From NCBI GenBank assembly GCA_030616165.1, contig JAUWXV010000126.1, positions 1-10,646 on the forward strand: DNA of 10,646 bases. Reading direction: 5' to 3'. The DNA is from a bacterium (GTDB taxonomy: Bacteria; SM23-31; JAUVVT01). Below, in pieces: positions 4,609-10,470 of this stretch (its first letter is position 1; every line of letters begins with the position of its first letter). The translations under genes and the position numbers were made by a program. The notes under the pieces are model-generated. The model saw nothing but the letters and a program-made list of their open reading frames with translations, was not told the DNA's origin and searched no databases.

Positions 4609-4637
4609 AAATACCCCATAAGTATTATGGGGTATTT
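4609..4637. terminator. bidirectional Rho-independent terminator between dnaE and the XRE gene
   Basis: This is a perfect 12-bp inverted repeat: arm 4609-4620 (AAATACCCCATA) and arm 4626-4637, with the 5-nt loop AGTAT. A GC-rich CCCC/GGGG block lies in the middle of the stem. It is flanked on the left by an A-rich tract (4600-4610), which reads as a U tract on the minus strand, and on the right by ATTTATTT. It therefore fits termination of both converging transcripts: dnaE, 44 nt away on the left, and the XRE regulator, 46 nt away on the right. The U tract is stronger in the minus direction. Confidence 0.85.
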
Positions 4638-4683: not shown

Positions 4684-4890
4684 TTATACTAAAATGCCTT
4701 CTTTTCTTGTTTTATTTTCAAGTTTTCTAATATAACTTTCTAATTTTTTTCTTTTGTTGTTGTTCTTTATTTCTGTGATGTATCCTCTTTCAATTCTATT
4801 AAGATAACCGACGGATAAACCTGTGTCCATTGCCACTTGGTCGAGAGTTATGTCGTTAATTTTTCTTAGTTGCCTTAATCTTGTTAACAT
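4684..4890 (-). CDS. small XRE-family helix-turn-helix transcriptional regulator
   Basis: This is a 68-aa protein consisting of little more than one Cro/C1-type DNA-binding domain. Residues 14-36 give the typical pattern ITLDQVAMDTGLSVGYLNRI followed by ERG: the helix TLDQVAMDTG, the turn GLS, the recognition helix VGYLNRIE and the RG that closes it. The rest (about 38-68) is strongly basic with a heptad-like KLESYIRKLENK that could dimerise. There is no sensor or ligand domain. The start is well supported by GAGGTGAT (minus strand, 4896-4903), 5 nt before the ATG and the best ribosome site in the window. The gene converges with dnaE and diverges from the dehydrogenase. The shared 278-nt gap with repeated half-sites suggests it controls itself and possibly the dehydrogenase, but this is inference. 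Confidence 0.88.
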   Translation of the reverse strand: MLTRLRQLRKINDITLDQVAMDTGLSVGYLNRIERGYITEIKNNNKRKKLESYIRKLENKTRKEGILV

Positions 4891-5168
4891 TAAATATCAC
4901 CTCTTTCTCATAATATTTTTATTGGTGAAAAAATTAATTTTTTATTAGTTCTATAACTATATAATAAAACTAATTTTTTTAAAAAAAAGTTCCAATAAAA
5001 TTGATTATTCTTTAATTTATTTTTTTTCATACTTATTTTCAATATATTTAAAGTGTTATGTTAAGTTAGAATTATTTGATAATTAAATAATTTTTTTTAA
5101 TTTTTTACATCTTTACTTATAGTTTTATTACAACTTTTCGATAAAAAATATTCAAATTATTAATTAAA
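4891..5168. other. very A+T-rich divergent intergenic region with homopolymer tracts
   Basis: This 278-nt gap between the divergent XRE regulator and the dehydrogenase shows no gene. It is almost entirely A and T, with tracts T7 (4974-4980) directly joined to A8 (4981-4988), T8 (5020-5027), T8 (5091-5098) and T6 (5101-5106). Such tracts can bend DNA. Plus-strand -10-like hexamers are present at 4960-4965 (TATAAT), 5067-5072 (TAGAAT) and 5118-5123 (TATAGT). I find no convincing -35 box at proper spacing for any of them. The sequence before the dehydrogenase ATG has no Shine-Dalgarno site. Confidence 0.6.
4944..4974. promoter_or_regulatory. candidate operator: repeated AACTA half-sites
   Basis: A perfect inverted repeat TAGTT-CTAT-AACTA (4946-4959) is followed by a third AACTA half-site (4969-4973). 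The whole 31 nt also forms a longer imperfect palindrome: ATTAGTTCTAT at 4944-4954 against ATAAAACTAAT at 4964-4974, 10 of 11 positions paired. It lies 54-84 nt upstream of the XRE start and overlaps a TATAAT (4960-4965) on the plus strand and TATAGT on the minus strand. Small XRE repressors usually bind palindromes near their own promoter, so autoregulation is plausible. An alternative is a weak terminator-like hairpin, because T7 follows. Confidence 0.35.
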
Positions 5169-6107: not shown

Positions 6108-6123
6108 CAACCTTTTTAGTTTA

Positions 6124-6180
6124 AAGTTTCTTTGCCCACTTTCTTTTCAAAGAAAGTGGATTTTCAAAAGAAAGTAAGCA
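6124..6180. repeat. hairpin element, copy A, with a duplicated 3' arm
   Basis: This lies in the 107-nt gap between the dehydrogenase and the MBL hydrolase. Box AAGTTTCTTTG (6124-6134) is followed by a hairpin with left arm CCACTTTCTTT (6136-6146) and right arm AAAGAAAGTGG (6149-6159), folding as a 10-bp stem with loop TTCA (6146-6149). A second version of the 3' arm follows (TTTTCAAAAGAAAGT, 6161-6175), so ACTTTCTTTT (6138-6147) can instead pair perfectly with 6166-6175. The architecture matches copies B (8337-8385) and C (10421-10470): T-rich box, stem of different sequence, TTCA loop. The 3' side carries no U tract, so it is a poor classical terminator. Confidence 0.65.
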
Positions 6181-6185
6181 GTGAC

Positions 6186-6197
6186 TCGATATATCGA
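6186..6197. promoter_or_regulatory. 12-bp perfect palindrome upstream of the MBL hydrolase
   Basis: TCGATATATCGA is a perfect dyad ending 17 nt before the start codon of the metallo-hydrolase gene. It could be an operator or a small hairpin near the ribosome-binding region. No partner regulator is evident, and a 12-bp dyad in A+T-rich DNA may be chance. Confidence 0.25.
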
Positions 6198-6214
6198 AAC
6201 TCTACTATGATAAT

Positions 6215-6988
6215 ATGAAAAAGAATTTAAAGATAACCTTTCTTGGAACAGGAACCTCCCTGGGTGTGCCTGAGATAGGATGTGTCTGTGAAGTCTGCAC
6301 TTCAACTGATATGAAAAATAAACGCCTCAGACCTTCGGTTCTTGTGGAAAGTGAAGAAATCTCAATACTTATTGATACTACACCTGACCTGAGAATTCAA
6401 GCTTTGAAATACAAAGTTAATAGGATTAATGCTATTCTTTACACTCATCAACATGCAGACCATATCTATGGACTCGATGACATTCGCAGGTTTAACTATC
6501 TTCAGAAAAGTTCTATACCCTGTTATGGTAATGAAAAAACAATAAAAGTAATAATGAATTCGTTTTCATACATATTAAAAAATGATAAGAGGTTTGAGTA
6601 TTTTCTTCCAAAGATTGATTTTCACACGATAAATAACAAATTTCATATCGGGGATATTGAAATTATTCCGGTAGAGGTTTTACACGGTGGATTAAGTATT
6701 CTTGGTTTTAGAATAGGAAATTTTGCATATTTAACCGATTGTAATAAGATACCGGAAAGTTCAAGAAAGTTTCTATATGGGTTGGATGTTCTTGTTCTCG
6801 ATGCTTTGCGTAAAAAATCGCATATTGCCCATTTCAATCTTTCTGAAGCAGTCTCGGAAGCAGGATTAATCAGTGCAGATAGGGCTTTTTTTACACACAT
6901 TAGTCACGACCTTGAACATAACACCATTAATAAACAACTTCCTGAAAATATAAAACTTGCTTATGATGGATTAGTTGTGGAATTATAA
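6215..6988 (+). CDS. MBL-fold metallo-hydrolase, PhnP-like phosphodiesterase type
   Basis: This is a metallo-beta-lactamase-fold hydrolase of 257 aa, the usual length for the group that includes PhnP (phosphoribosyl cyclic phosphate phosphodiesterase). The N-terminus has LGTGTSLGVPEIGC and the cysteines Cys23, Cys25 and Cys28, which bind a structural zinc in PhnP. The di-metal site is THQHADH (His78, His80, Asp82, His83), followed by GLDDIRRFN, His157 (VLHGG), Asp175 (LTDCN) and His228 (THISHDL). His206 (HFNLSEA) is also typical of this subgroup. All key ligands appear present. No phosphonate (phn) genes are in view, so the true substrate is unknown; a cyclic phosphodiester is the family-based guess. 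There is no Shine-Dalgarno site. The glycosyltransferase starts 10 nt after its stop, so the two are probably co-transcribed. Confidence 0.88.
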   Translation: MKKNLKITFLGTGTSLGVPEIGCVCEVCTSTDMKNKRLRPSVLVESEEISILIDTTPDLRIQALKYKVNRINAILYTHQHADHIYGLDDIRRFNYLQKSSIPCYGNEKTIKVIMNSFSYILKNDKRFEYFLPKIDFHTINNKFHIGDIEIIPVEVLHGGLSILGFRIGNFAYLTDCNKIPESSRKFLYGLDVLVLDALRKKSHIAHFNLSEAVSEAGLISADRAFFTHISHDLEHNTINKQLPENIKLAYDGLVVEL

Positions 6989-6998
6989 AGTTTATTAT

Positions 6999-8309
6999 AT
7001 GAAGAAGGTATTAATACTTGCCTATTACTATCCGCCAATGGGGATGGGAGGTGTTCAGAGGGCTGTTAAATTTACAAAGTATTTGACAGTCTGGAAGCCA
7101 ATCGTCATAACTGTAAAAGATGTTGAATATTATTCTTATGATGAATCATTGTTGAAGGATATTTCGAATATAAAGATTGTAAGAACTGAATCACTTGATC
7201 CCCTGCGCATAACTTTTATTTTTAAAAGGATTTTTAGAAGAAAAAAAAATATAGTGAATAAAATATATAAAAGTGGAAAATTAAAAAGATTATATGATAC
7301 CGTTAACAGGTGGATTTTTATACCCGATTCAAAAATATTGTGGATTCCATTTGCAGTATTAAAATCTTTAAAGATAATAAAAAAAGAAAATATCAGTATG
7401 GTTTTTACAACATCCCCTCCGAATTCTTCACATATTGCTGGACTTTTTTTAAAGAAGATAATGAAAGTTAAGTGGGTGGCAGATTTCAGGGACTACTGGT
7501 TCGTTGATGGAATGATTAATTATCCTACCCCTTTGCATAAGTTTGCTAATGATTTTATCAGGAGAAAGATAATAAAAAACGCAGACCATATAGTTGGTGT
7601 TTCTCAAGGCATAATTGATGATTTAAAAATTTCATATAAAAGGAATGATTCAAATTATTCTGTTATAATGAATGGTTTCGATGAGGAAGATTTTCCCAAA
7701 AGCATTCCTGTAAAAACAGATGATAAATTTTTGATAATCCATTCCGGGACGTTAAATTATATTAATGACCCTTGTAATTTTTTAGACGGTTTAACACTTG
7801 CGGTTAAGGAGAATAACCAGTTAAGGAAAGACGCATTGTTTTTGCATATTGGACTTTCAATTAATTTCGACCTTAAAAGTGAGGCAAAAAAGAGAGACAT
7901 TGATGATATGATTCTTGAGAAGGGGTATATTAATCATAAGGATAGTGTAAAATTCATTTTAAATGCTGATTTACTTTTATTTGTTCTTTCCGATTTCTGT
8001 AATTCAGGAGTATTATCTATAAAACTTTTTGAATACCTCGCTGCTAATATTCCAATTCTTGCAGTTATTCCCGATGGTGAGGCGGCGGGTTTAATCAGAA
8101 GGTATAACAGGGGAATAATTTGTGAAAATAAAAATATCGAGAAAATTAAAAATACAATATTATTTTATTATGAGGAGTGGAAGAGGAACAAACATAAGAA
8201 AACCTTCGAAACTGCTTTTCAAATCCCGGAAGAATTAAAAAAGTATTCAAGAAAAAGTCTTACGAATGATTTAAAGAATATCTTTAATAAGATGATAAAT
8301 GTTAATTAA
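6999..8309 (+). CDS. glycosyltransferase, GT4-like (GT-B fold)
   Basis: This enzyme would transfer a sugar from a nucleotide-sugar donor onto a growing glycan at the cytoplasmic face of the membrane. From the ATG at 6999 the protein has 436 aa. The N-terminus MKKVLILAYYYPPMGMGG followed by VQR is the usual first strand and Gly-rich loop of GT4 enzymes. Further landmarks are TTSPPNSSH (137-145), WVADFRDYW (159-167), NADHIVGVS (194-202) and IMNGFDEEDF (223-232). The C-terminal domain opens with IIHSGTLNY (247-255). The donor-binding region has SIKLFEYLAANIPILA (340-355), whose Glu is typically the donor-contacting residue, and then IPDGEAAGLI. An in-frame TTG at 6975 would add 8 residues and overlap the previous gene. 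The ATG is preferred because the conserved strand starts there. There is no clear ribosome site. Donor and acceptor are not predictable. Confidence 0.88.
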   Translation: MKKVLILAYYYPPMGMGGVQRAVKFTKYLTVWKPIVITVKDVEYYSYDESLLKDISNIKIVRTESLDPLRITFIFKRIFRRKKNIVNKIYKSGKLKRLYDTVNRWIFIPDSKILWIPFAVLKSLKIIKKENISMVFTTSPPNSSHIAGLFLKKIMKVKWVADFRDYWFVDGMINYPTPLHKFANDFIRRKIIKNADHIVGVSQGIIDDLKISYKRNDSNYSVIMNGFDEEDFPKSIPVKTDDKFLIIHSGTLNYINDPCNFLDGLTLAVKENNQLRKDALFLHIGLSINFDLKSEAKKRDIDDMILEKGYINHKDSVKFILNADLLLFVLSDFCNSGVLSIKLFEYLAANIPILAVIPDGEAAGLIRRYNRGIICENKNIEKIKNTILFYYEEWKRNKHKKTFETAFQIPEELKKYSRKSLTNDLKNIFNKMINVN

Positions 8310-8336
8310 AAATAACCGTTTTTCACTTGACCTGAA

Positions 8337-8385
8337 TAGAAATAATAGTAAGTTTTTTGTGCAACTATTTTTCAAAAAAGTTGCA
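8337..8385. repeat. hairpin element, copy B
   Basis: This copy sits in the 101-nt gap between the glycosyltransferase and the FemAB-like gene. A 23-nt string (8337-8359, starting TAGAAATAATAG and ending in TTTTTTG) is identical to 10421-10443 in copy C. A hairpin follows: arm TGCAACT (8360-8366), an A-A mismatch, TTT, loop TTCA (8371-8374), AAA and arm AGTTGCA (8379-8385). The stem sequence differs from copies A and C, but the pairing and the loop are the same. TTTTTTG (8353-8359) is also complementary to CAAAAAA (8373-8379), giving an alternative fold. Confidence 0.7.
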
Positions 8386-8387
8386 AA

Positions 8388-8393
8388 TATAAT
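8388..8393 (+). promoter_or_regulatory. candidate -10 box before the FemAB-like gene
   Basis: A perfect TATAAT lies 17 nt before the ATG at 8411 and directly follows hairpin copy B. It would start transcription about 8400 and leave a leader of about 10 nt. No recognisable -35 box lies 16-18 nt upstream, where the hairpin is. In A+T-rich DNA such hexamers are frequent, so this is weak evidence. Confidence 0.25.
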
Positions 8394-8410
8394 GTTTAGA
8401 ATAGCGAAAA

Positions 8411-9385
8411 ATGAAAAATAATATCAAAGCAAAAATAATGAAAGGAACTGACGTTAACAAATGGGATAACTTTGTTGAAAATTCAGGAAACGGAACAATT
8501 TTTCATCTTCAAAAATTTTTAAGTTATCATCCAAGGGGAAAATTCAAAAATCATAATATAATCTTCCGAGACGGGAAAGACATAATAGCCGTTATTCCCG
8601 GAGTGGAAGAAAGACAAAAAATCAAATCCTTTATATCGCATCCTGGAGCATCGTTTGGAGGGTTTGTGTTTAGGAATGGTATAAGTATTAAAAAGATTGA
8701 AAAAATCATTAGCATATTTTTAGAATATATTAAAAAAAATGATTTTCGCTCCGTTTTTATTACTCTGACTCCTCTGCCATATCAAGACAAGTTTGGTGAA
8801 GAAATTGATTTTTTATTGAATTTAAATGGATTCTGCATAAAAAGAAAGGAACTGACTTCAGGGTTATATCTTGATTTTGTGAGTGAAGAGGACATATTAA
8901 AGAGTTTTAAAGATTCGACAGTCAGGGGAATAAAGAAATCTTTAAGAAATAACATAAATTTCAGACAGAGTGATGATATAGAAATATTTTATAATATTTT
9001 ATCGGAGAATTTAAGAAGGTTTCATAAAGCAGAACCGACACATTCCTATGATGAGATAAAGAGATTAATGAATGAATTTCCGGATAGGATTCTTCTTTTC
9101 GGAGCATACCATAAGGGAAAAATGATTGGAGGGATTATTCTATTTTTATGCAGAAAAGATATCTCACTCATTTTTTATATTGCCAGTGACAGAAAATATC
9201 AGTCTTTGAGAACGGAAAATTTGATAATCTATGAGGTGATAAAATGGCTTTATGAAAGAAATTACAAATATCTCGATTTTGGTACTCTTTCAATTAATAT
9301 GAAGATAAATTATGGGATTTATCAATTCAGAAGGGGATTTGGTATAGTTAACTTTGCTAAAAATCAATACTATCTGAGAATATAA
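8411..9385 (+). CDS. FemAB/GNAT-fold acyl- or aminoacyl-transferase
   Basis: This 324-aa protein shows the double-GNAT layout of the FemAB-like / 'BioF2-like' acetyltransferase group. An N-terminal half (about 5-155) has GNGTIFHLQKFLSYHP (27-41), typical of 'something-to-F-xx-xxWL' starts in this group, and VIPGVEE. The C-terminal GNAT domain (about 158-324) has the basic helix STVRGIKKSLRNN (169-181), FRRFHKAEP-like LRRFHKAEPTH (201-211), ILLFGAYHKGKMIGGIILF (227-245) and YLDFGTLSINMKINYGIYQF (287-306), then RRGFG. The last stretch is the most diagnostic. Family members add amino acids or acyl groups to peptidoglycan precursors, lipids or exopolysaccharide, and they occur in exosortase-type polysaccharide loci. 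The donor (aminoacyl-tRNA or acyl-CoA) cannot be told here. There is no signal peptide. It ends 1 nt before the epimerase start, so translational coupling is likely. Confidence 0.8.
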   Translation: MKNNIKAKIMKGTDVNKWDNFVENSGNGTIFHLQKFLSYHPRGKFKNHNIIFRDGKDIIAVIPGVEERQKIKSFISHPGASFGGFVFRNGISIKKIEKIISIFLEYIKKNDFRSVFITLTPLPYQDKFGEEIDFLLNLNGFCIKRKELTSGLYLDFVSEEDILKSFKDSTVRGIKKSLRNNINFRQSDDIEIFYNILSENLRRFHKAEPTHSYDEIKRLMNEFPDRILLFGAYHKGKMIGGIILFLCRKDISLIFYIASDRKYQSLRTENLIIYEVIKWLYERNYKYLDFGTLSINMKINYGIYQFRRGFGIVNFAKNQYYLRI

Positions 9386-9386
9386 A

Positions 9387-10340
9387 ATGATAAAAGGTAA
9401 AACAATATTTATTACTGGTGGTGCGGGATTTATTGGTTCAAGTATTGCTGAAAGGCTTATAGATAATAATAAAATTATAATATACGATAACTTTTTAAGA
9501 GATTCTCTGAAGTATAAAAATATTGCAGACCATAAGAATATTGAAATAATAGAAGGGGATGTCCTTGATGCAGGTCATTTAAATAAATCTGTAATGGGTT
9601 CAAATATTATTATTCATCTTGCTTCTAGAGCGGGTGTTGATAATGTTCTAAAAAATCCCACAGAAACTATGAGGATATGTTTGATTGGTTCATGCAATAT
9701 CTTTGAGAGTGCAAAGAGATTAAAGAATCTAAAAAAAATAATAGACCTTTCGACAAGTGAAGTTTTTGGGAATTATGCGTATAAATCAGAAGAAGACCAT
9801 ACTACAACGATGGGAATTGTTGGGGAAGCCCGGTGGACTTATGCAGTTAGCAAACTTGCAGCAGAACACCTTCTTCACAGTTATCACAAGGAGTTTGGAC
9901 TGCCTGGAGTTTCGATTCGACCTTTTAATATATATGGACCCTGTCAGACCGGTGAAGGTGCGATTCATACATTTATAAAAAGAGCGTTGAAAAACGAAAC
10001 AATTCAGATTCACGGAAATGGAGACCAGATTCGCTCGTGGTGCTATATAGATGACCTTATTGATGGCATTTTACTGTGTATTGAAAATGAAAAATCAGTT
10101 GGAAATGTTTATAATATTGGAAATCCTGTAGGCACTATAACTATCCTTCATCTTGCGAAACTGATTATAGATATTTGTAAGTCTGAATCTGAAATAGAAT
10201 TCATTCCCAAAAATTATACCGATGTCGAACTAAGAATCCCGAGTATCGAAAAAGCAAGAAAAGAACTGGGATTCAGCCCAAAAATAGACCTCGAAGAAGG
10301 TATCCTTAAAACTATAGAGTGGTATAAAAAGTTTGTTTAA
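9387..10340 (+). CDS. NAD-dependent sugar-nucleotide epimerase/dehydratase (extended SDR)
   Basis: This extended short-chain dehydrogenase would convert an activated sugar such as a UDP- or dTDP-hexose to feed polysaccharide synthesis. The protein is 317 aa, normal for the family. The NAD-binding loop ITGGAGFIGSS occupies 9-19 (Gly11, Gly14, Gly17). It is followed by Asp35 at the end of strand 2 and GDVLD (58-62). The catalytic set is LSTSEVFG (121-128, Ser122-Thr-Ser) and Tyr152-xxx-Lys156 in RWTYAVSK. The substrate-side motifs are IRPFNIYGP (177-185), GNGDQIRSWCYIDD (210-223) and NIGNP (243-247). Product specificity is undecided: 4-epimerase, UDP-glucuronate decarboxylase or a dehydratase could all look like this. 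The RWTYAVSK context is common in the first two. The start directly follows the FemAB-like stop, with no independent ribosome site. Confidence 0.92.
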   Translation: MIKGKTIFITGGAGFIGSSIAERLIDNNKIIIYDNFLRDSLKYKNIADHKNIEIIEGDVLDAGHLNKSVMGSNIIIHLASRAGVDNVLKNPTETMRICLIGSCNIFESAKRLKNLKKIIDLSTSEVFGNYAYKSEEDHTTTMGIVGEARWTYAVSKLAAEHLLHSYHKEFGLPGVSIRPFNIYGPCQTGEGAIHTFIKRALKNETIQIHGNGDQIRSWCYIDDLIDGILLCIENEKSVGNVYNIGNPVGTITILHLAKLIIDICKSESEIEFIPKNYTDVELRIPSIEKARKELGFSPKIDLEEGILKTIEWYKKFV

Positions 10341-10359
10341 TTAATAATAAAAATTAGTT

Positions 10360-10421
10360 TTTCTCTTCCACAGTGGAGAAATTTAACCATTTCAAATTCA
10401 TCCCGATTCTCGGGAAGAATT
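10360..10421. repeat. two tandem hairpins in the epimerase 3' region
   Basis: The first hairpin pairs TTTCTC (10360-10365) with GAGAAA (10376-10381). The second is longer: AATTC (10395-10399), an A-A mismatch, TCCCGA (10401-10406), loop TTC, TCGGGA (10410-10415) and GAATT (10417-10421), so 11 of 12 positions pair. The second ends exactly where copy C of the box-hairpin element begins. Neither has a U tract directly after it. They look like parts of an intergenic repeat mosaic rather than simple terminators. Confidence 0.55.
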
Positions 10422-10470
10422 AGAAATAATAGTAAGTTTTTTGGGACACCTTTTTTTCAAAAAAGGTGTC
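10421..10470. repeat. hairpin element, copy C, possibly acting as a terminator
   Basis: The 23-nt box at 10421-10443 is identical to that of copy B. The hairpin that follows has arm GACACCTTTTT (10445-10455), loop TTCA (10456-10459) and arm AAAAAGGTGTC (10460-10470), an 11-bp perfect stem. Downstream, TGTTTTTT (10471-10478) gives a U tract. This copy therefore could end transcription of the glycosyltransferase-FemAB-epimerase set, or attenuate readthrough into the next gene at 10521. TTTTTTG (10437-10443) can pair with CAAAAAA (10458-10464) as an alternative fold. Confidence 0.7.

Follow-up and report, generated by a model that had tools for sequence, protein, structure and literature searches.

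The relevance of intrastrand triplexes in living bacteria has been an open question since the PIT elements, and the motif of Escherichia coli is nearly invariant and left no stable footprint in vivo. The triplex motifs known as PIT, BoxC and TMECO in E. coli and other Proteobacteria (Hoyne et al. 2000; PMC4666352) are the closest known kind to the element described here. No promoter or terminator activity has been reported for TMECO (PMC4666352), and an association of intrastrand triplex motifs with local instability of the genome has been described (Holder et al. 2015; PMC4666352). Here we describe a repeat family with three copies (A, B and C) in a bacterial DNA stretch of 10,646 nucleotides (contig JAUWXV010000126.1 of assembly GCA_030616165.1, GTDB lineage SM23-31), hereafter the window. 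In our judgment it is probably a non-autonomous repeated DNA element, whose triplex-capable ends are kept as DNA structure and whose copies spread or are turned over between co-directional genes.

Each copy is an end module, in which a pyrimidine box is followed by a hairpin. In parallel orientation, this box is complementary to the loop-proximal purine arm of the hairpin (T over A, C over G), including the position of the C and the length of the tract; this match between T-rich box and stem was overlooked in an earlier, sequence-only reading of the window. Seven exact box/arm classes were found: T3CT3/A3GA3, T4CT2/A4GA2, T4CT3/A4GA3, T7/A7, T6G/A6G, T6GG/A6GG and T5GG/A5GG. Ten of 27 distinct box-arm combinations were exact including length, compared with a mean of 2.6 and a maximum of 9 in 2000 shuffles, and parallel outnumbered antiparallel matches in asymmetric cores by 23 to 2, 6 to 0 and 5 to 0. 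Because T4CT2 and T4CT3 fit only in parallel, a direct repeat and antiparallel pairing are excluded, and with them an antiterminator-like switch in which the T-box would pair with the 3' arm. We also considered a cloverleaf between left and right boxes, at which RNA folds of some copies hint, and rejected it as the constraint: the elements L127 and L145 each contain two different end classes, and each box follows its own hairpin.

In order to remove model bias, we repeated the comparison with a free pattern in which neither the box (YYYY) nor the stem (YYYY/RRRR) was constrained. In the host genome and the one relative that carries the element, 43 of 43 matches obey the box-arm rule. Among 394 genomes of the order containing the Oscillospiraceae carrier (Oscillospirales), six contain matches; all 30 of the matches listed obey the rule, and most belong to a class absent from the host, T2CT4/A2GA4. 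In total 73 of 73 listed matches obey, with three different C positions between host, relative and Oscillospirales, although copies within a class are related, so that the independent box-arm changes perhaps number 6 to 9 classes rather than 73 events. The rule also holds in single copies from Caballeronia, Pasteurella, Subdoligranulum and a viral contig.

The box and the two arms of its hairpin (5' and 3') are able to match by T.A-T and C.G-C over 5-8 triplets, as in an intrastrand triplex motif. Judged by its letters, the box register is that of a parallel pyrimidine third strand under the intrastrand Y.R-Y triplex rule, and the ends may form such a triplex. Published definitions would place the box strand in class IV and its complement in class II (PMC4666352).

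The family is present throughout the host genome. A pattern derived from copy A, AGTTTYTTTG-N-TTTCAAARAA, which is expected 0.00 times in the shuffled window, matched the host genome 38 times, compared with 0 matches for a reversed-pattern control. A covariance model of box and hairpin built from 18 end sequences (R1) found about 110 or more end hairpins (E<1e-3) in the 3.74 Mb host genome, a lower bound for which 150 candidates were scored. We gathered 124 non-overlapping ends from 75 stretches, the window included; their classes include CYYACTTTC, CTTACTTC, GACACC and TGCAAC stems among others. Across 103 distinct end hairpins, 9 of 11 pairs show two-sided changes, 97% of cells are paired (46-67% with partners slid), and covariation scores 0.51 as opposed to 0.18 after shuffling; this alignment was fitted to R1, and the unfitted set of 18 sequences gave the same picture. 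The sequence-only reading had proposed a family of hairpins with compensatory stem changes, to be given up if no further copies were found or the stems did not covary; the outcome was clearly the contrary. Its three copies are where it placed them, with the stems it gave, and pairing is kept overall, except that the stem of copy B has an A/A mismatch. The TTCA loop it took to be common to all holds for part of the family only and is not a general feature.

The description of the three hairpins was incomplete. Aligned flanks show that the copies are fragments of a composite, in which each side consists, from outside to inside, of an end hairpin, an inward-pointing pyrimidine box, a short linker and one or two long middle hairpins. 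End pairs no more than 250 bp apart were divergent in 14 cases and convergent in none, facing outward around a long central hairpin. An intact central hairpin (score of at least 20) lies upstream of 73 of the 124 ends, with 64 distinct stems, at every position of which two or more types of Watson-Crick pair occur. Of the positions in 53 distinct, well-formed stems, 98.3% are Watson-Crick, compared with 27-36% when arms are slid and at most 57% when they are shuffled. G-T pairs and other mismatches are equally rare (7 and 8, respectively, of 829 inner cells). Among central stems that differ at 1-3 positions, 188 of 225 differing positions had changed on both sides, a proportion to be read with the choice of stems by pairing score in mind, through which one-sided intermediates are under-counted. 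Since G-T pairs are no commoner than mismatches and changes are mostly two-sided, pairing appears to be kept up at the DNA level, which points to selection on a DNA hairpin or to templated correction between the arms. In five places (L147:1980, L155:6124, L155:2137, L172:2126 and L188:2162), GC-rich palindromes (CCCGCCATAGGCGGG, often followed by TCCTTCGGA) lie inside or directly after the box, as if hairpins insert into hairpins.

Of 108 copies placed by mechanical open reading frame (ORF) calls, 87 have co-directional genes on either side, without strand preference (39 same, 48 opposite). Forty-eight copies face a gene end; in 32 of them the hairpin starts no more than 6 nt from the stop codon or inside the ORF end, and the opposite side usually ends 15-50 nt ahead of the next start codon. 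Such a pattern would result from insertion into short gaps and removal of harmful insertions. When orthologous gaps of host and relative were compared, some were found to hold an element in only one of the two genomes, the host in one case and the relative in another (L107/L134; L219/L140), and other gaps hold different versions of the element (L114/L153; L223/L147). Therefore, copies are gained, lost or rebuilt within the family, which suggests spread or rapid turnover. In the relative, a HisH-like gene adjoins an element (L107:902-1501), while the host gap (L134:8491-8558) lacks the gene and contains a decayed element remnant; this difference is suggestive of a deletion at the element. As to how the window copies themselves were inserted, the relative offers only a distant match for the MBL-fold gene and none for the FemAB gene.

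Several observations weigh against the reading of a repeated DNA element with conserved structure, in addition to the relatedness of copies within classes and the choice of stems by pairing score. At neutral pH, C+ triplets are weak. Inspection of two-ended copies by eye revealed no target-site duplication. Dimethyl sulfate (DMS) footprinting of the E. coli motif gave no sign of a stable triplex in vivo (Holder et al. 2015; PMC4666352).

Among other explanations, the inverted hairpin doublets (14 divergent and 0 convergent neighbors, as in REPs and REPINs), each hairpin preceded by a conserved motif, with intergenic location and about 110 copies, would be expected of a REPIN, that is, inverted REP hairpin pairs moved by a genome-encoded RAYT (TnpA_REP) single-strand transposase. 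The host genome has seven Y1_Tnp genes, and a related, box-less hairpin lies just upstream of one RAYT (L033). None of the seven is flanked by a box and hairpin end, however, which also counts against our own reading, as no transposase was found for the element. The flanking test does work, as another RAYT gene (L031) is flanked by its own GTAG REPs. The hairpin foot has no unpaired GTAG or CGTC tag and consists instead of a Y-box with G or GG at its end; GTAG-like letters fall inside the stem and are missing from the GACACC and TGCAAC classes. No Y1_Tnp match was found in the 47-copy relative (about 70% complete), and none over the cut-off in 8 of 10 motif-bearing Oscillospirales genomes. We therefore regard this explanation as unlikely, and a RAYT link for the element as not supported. 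The L031 locus itself (G000:C182:13346-16660), where the RAYT gene has on both sides tandem arrays of about 41 bp with GTAG and a CCGAGCCTG..CAGGCTCGG hairpin, reads as a textbook GTAG-REP/RAYT locus.

A different possibility is that structure is not selected at all, and that perfect stems arise by templated quasi-palindrome correction through replication strand switching, the family being a mutational by-product. The two-sided differences between similar stems and the intolerance of G-T are as expected if one event rewrites both arms; but strand switching yields inverted repeats and cannot make a box track an arm as a mirror match, and about 110 dispersed copies with a conserved linker are left unexplained, which makes this explanation quite unlikely. 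Similarly improbable, in our view, is a role in transcripts, as intrinsic terminators or 3' stabilisers of mRNA after stop codons. The closeness of hairpins to stop codons in the 32 of 48 copies above would agree with it, and the hairpin of window copy C is followed by TGTTTTTT with a terminator-like score. Against this, a T5 run within 10 nt after the hairpin is present in only 11 of 124 ends, the strand that ends at the stop codon has a hairpin followed by CAAAGAAAC rather than a U tract, there is no strand bias, and G-U pairs are as rare as mismatches, whereas selection on RNA normally leaves G-U intermediates. Neither a terminator role nor an RNA role is supported. The sequence-only reading had left the choice between selection on RNA or DNA structure and a mobile hairpin that diversifies its stem; these options stand, with the structural one widened to templated upkeep, except for RNA, which the rare G-U pairs, the absent strand bias and the symmetric ends speak against.

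Under the reading that we favor, a DNA element with triplex-capable ends, strand separation during replication, transcription or supercoiling would allow each end to fold, the box strand into an intrastrand triple helix of the Y.R-Y kind (T.A-T, C+.G-C) or, alternatively, its complement into the class II purine form. The folded DNA would then be what is kept, either as it is recognised by some DNA-processing enzyme or as, during replication through it, one arm serves as the template for the other. Copies would spread by transposition-like copying, or turn over fast, and survive where genes stay unbroken. The more specific proposal that the triple helix is a conserved recognition structure at the ends of a mobile element, with a freely diversifying central hairpin, a non-RAYT enzyme and members in several phyla, is a tentative one that we find doubtful. 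Evidence of this comparative kind, with the third and both stem strands changing together in parallel register in several classes and unrelated bacteria, was not found in the literature searched. Every class amounts to a built-in mutant series (mirror versus direct box), which makes the triplex question directly testable: GTTTTCTTG and CTTACTTCTTTTTCAAAAGAAGTAAG form a matched box and hairpin pair, and GTTCTTTTG is a mirror-broken box for the same hairpin. The central hairpins offer a natural example of DNA-level stems that change on both sides at once.

Among 60 relatives checked, the element was confined to the host and a second member of the host's family, which has 47 end copies. Named genomes were searched for an exact 35-mer, and the A-type end was present in Oscillospiraceae, in further Clostridia, Gemmiger among them, and in 'bacterium isolate CSMAG_1171', the relative; ten Clostridia genomes have 2-18 copies each. 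Plasmid records also have the element, in Subdoligranulum and, as partial matches, in Caballeronia, Pasteurella and Parabacteroides. In 2.9 million viral contigs it matched only twice, and carriage by phage was rejected on these grounds. In one viral contig (L209:900-1130) and one Oscillospiraceae stretch (L068), an end module lies near a long perfect hairpin of unrelated sequence. The composite plan may be common to several phyla.

Features of the three copies in the window (positions refer to the 10,646-nt stretch)
Feature	Position	Strand	Basis and remarks
Copy A pyrimidine box GTTTCTTTG (T3CT3)	6126..6134	+	Sequence; parallel match to arm A3GA3
Copy A end hairpin CCACTTTC..GAAAGTGG	6136..6159	+	R1, 57.0 bits (match 6123-6160); solo end, no good stem upstream
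Copy A partial second hairpin arm TTTTCAAAAGAAAGTAAGC	6161..6179	+	Sequence; also after copies L122, L143 and L142
Copy B remnant of central hairpin 3' arm (GAATAGAAAT) and linker	8334..8347	+	Common to copy C; no intact stem
Copy B pyrimidine box GTTTTTTG (T6G)	8352..8359	+	Sequence; arm A6G
Copy B end hairpin TGCAACT..AGTTGCA, one A/A mismatch	8360..8385	+	R1, 46.2 bits (match 8348-8385)
Copy C left hairpin H1 TTTCTC..GAGAAA	10360..10381	+	DNA fold; H1 type also in L120 and L134
Copy C central hairpin H2 ATTTCAAATTCATCCCGA-TTC-TCGGGAAGAATTAGAAAT	10389..10427	+	Stem search and DNA fold
Copy C pyrimidine box GTTTTTTGG (T6GG)	10436..10444	+	Sequence; arm A6GG
Copy C end hairpin GACACC..GGTGTC	10445..10470	+	R1, 56.8 bits (match 10433-10470)

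Within the window, copy C is a nearly full-length element (H1, H2, box and end hairpin on one side), copy B an eroded end that has lost its central hairpin, and copy A a solo end. The 23 identical nucleotides reported for B and C (TAGAAATAATAGTAAGTTTTTTG) were recovered within a 43-nt repeat of 84% identity; their nature is corrected here to the 3' arm of the central hairpin, the linker and the box. The end hairpin alone is moderately unusual (RNA fold z of -1.4 to -2.2), and the whole element of copy C folds far better as DNA than its shuffles (z of -6.3). Searches of the window against Rfam families at the gathering score and for tRNAs gave no matches. All three copies do lie between plus-strand genes according to gene calls and Pfam, namely alcohol dehydrogenase and MBL-fold, glycosyltransferase and FemAB-like, and NAD-epimerase and the next gene. 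Window genes are housekeeping or sugar-related (dnaE, zinc alcohol dehydrogenase, MBL-fold, glycosyltransferase, FemAB/GNAT-like and NAD epimerase), and the proposed tie to a sugar cluster is incidental, as the family is genome-wide. Two further features follow dnaE: a near-perfect bidirectional terminator-like hairpin, AAATACCCCATAAGTATTATGGGGTATTT (4609-4637), which is unrelated to the family, and a short minus-strand ORF (4690-4895) that by eye resembles a small helix-turn-helix (Xre-like) regulator.

Searching the literature for the motif letters returned nothing relevant; this search covered open papers by words and letters only, and an earlier description elsewhere is possible. No parent transposon with the same ends was found, no systematic search having been made. 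In common with miniature inverted-repeat transposable elements (MITEs), ERIC, BOX and Correia elements, the family is about 100-160 bp long, non-coding and located between genes, with inverted ends, but these ends are hairpins and not simple terminal inverted repeats. REPINs and the GTAG/CGTC REPs associated with RAYTs (PMC3116915, PMC3733652) likewise have a conserved motif 5' of the hairpin, frequently occur as inverted dimers whose spacers are structured, and are intergenic, with covarying stems and tens to hundreds of copies. Unlike them (PMC3733652), the present element has no unpaired GTAG/CGTC tag, its motif is a stem-matched box, and no RAYT association was found. The PIT/BoxC/TMECO motifs are similar in being short intergenic repeats with a hairpin and third strand in one DNA strand, without strand bias and sometimes as inverted pairs, with class II on one strand and a pyrimidine motif on the other. 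The TMECO/BoxC consensus CCCTCNCCC-N3-6-GGGNGAGGG-N3-GGGNGAGGG does not occur in the element, and A/T-rich CTTTCTTT..AAAGAAAG..CAAAGAAAC stands in its place. In contrast to these G/C-rich motifs, the element is A/T-rich, its second loop pairs as a basal stem, it has at least seven classes in which the box and both stem strands change together, it is joined to a long variable central hairpin, and it has over 100 copies in one genome. As far as sequence can tell, the family is therefore best described as an A/T-rich, covarying, composite variant on the intrastrand-triplex repeat plan.

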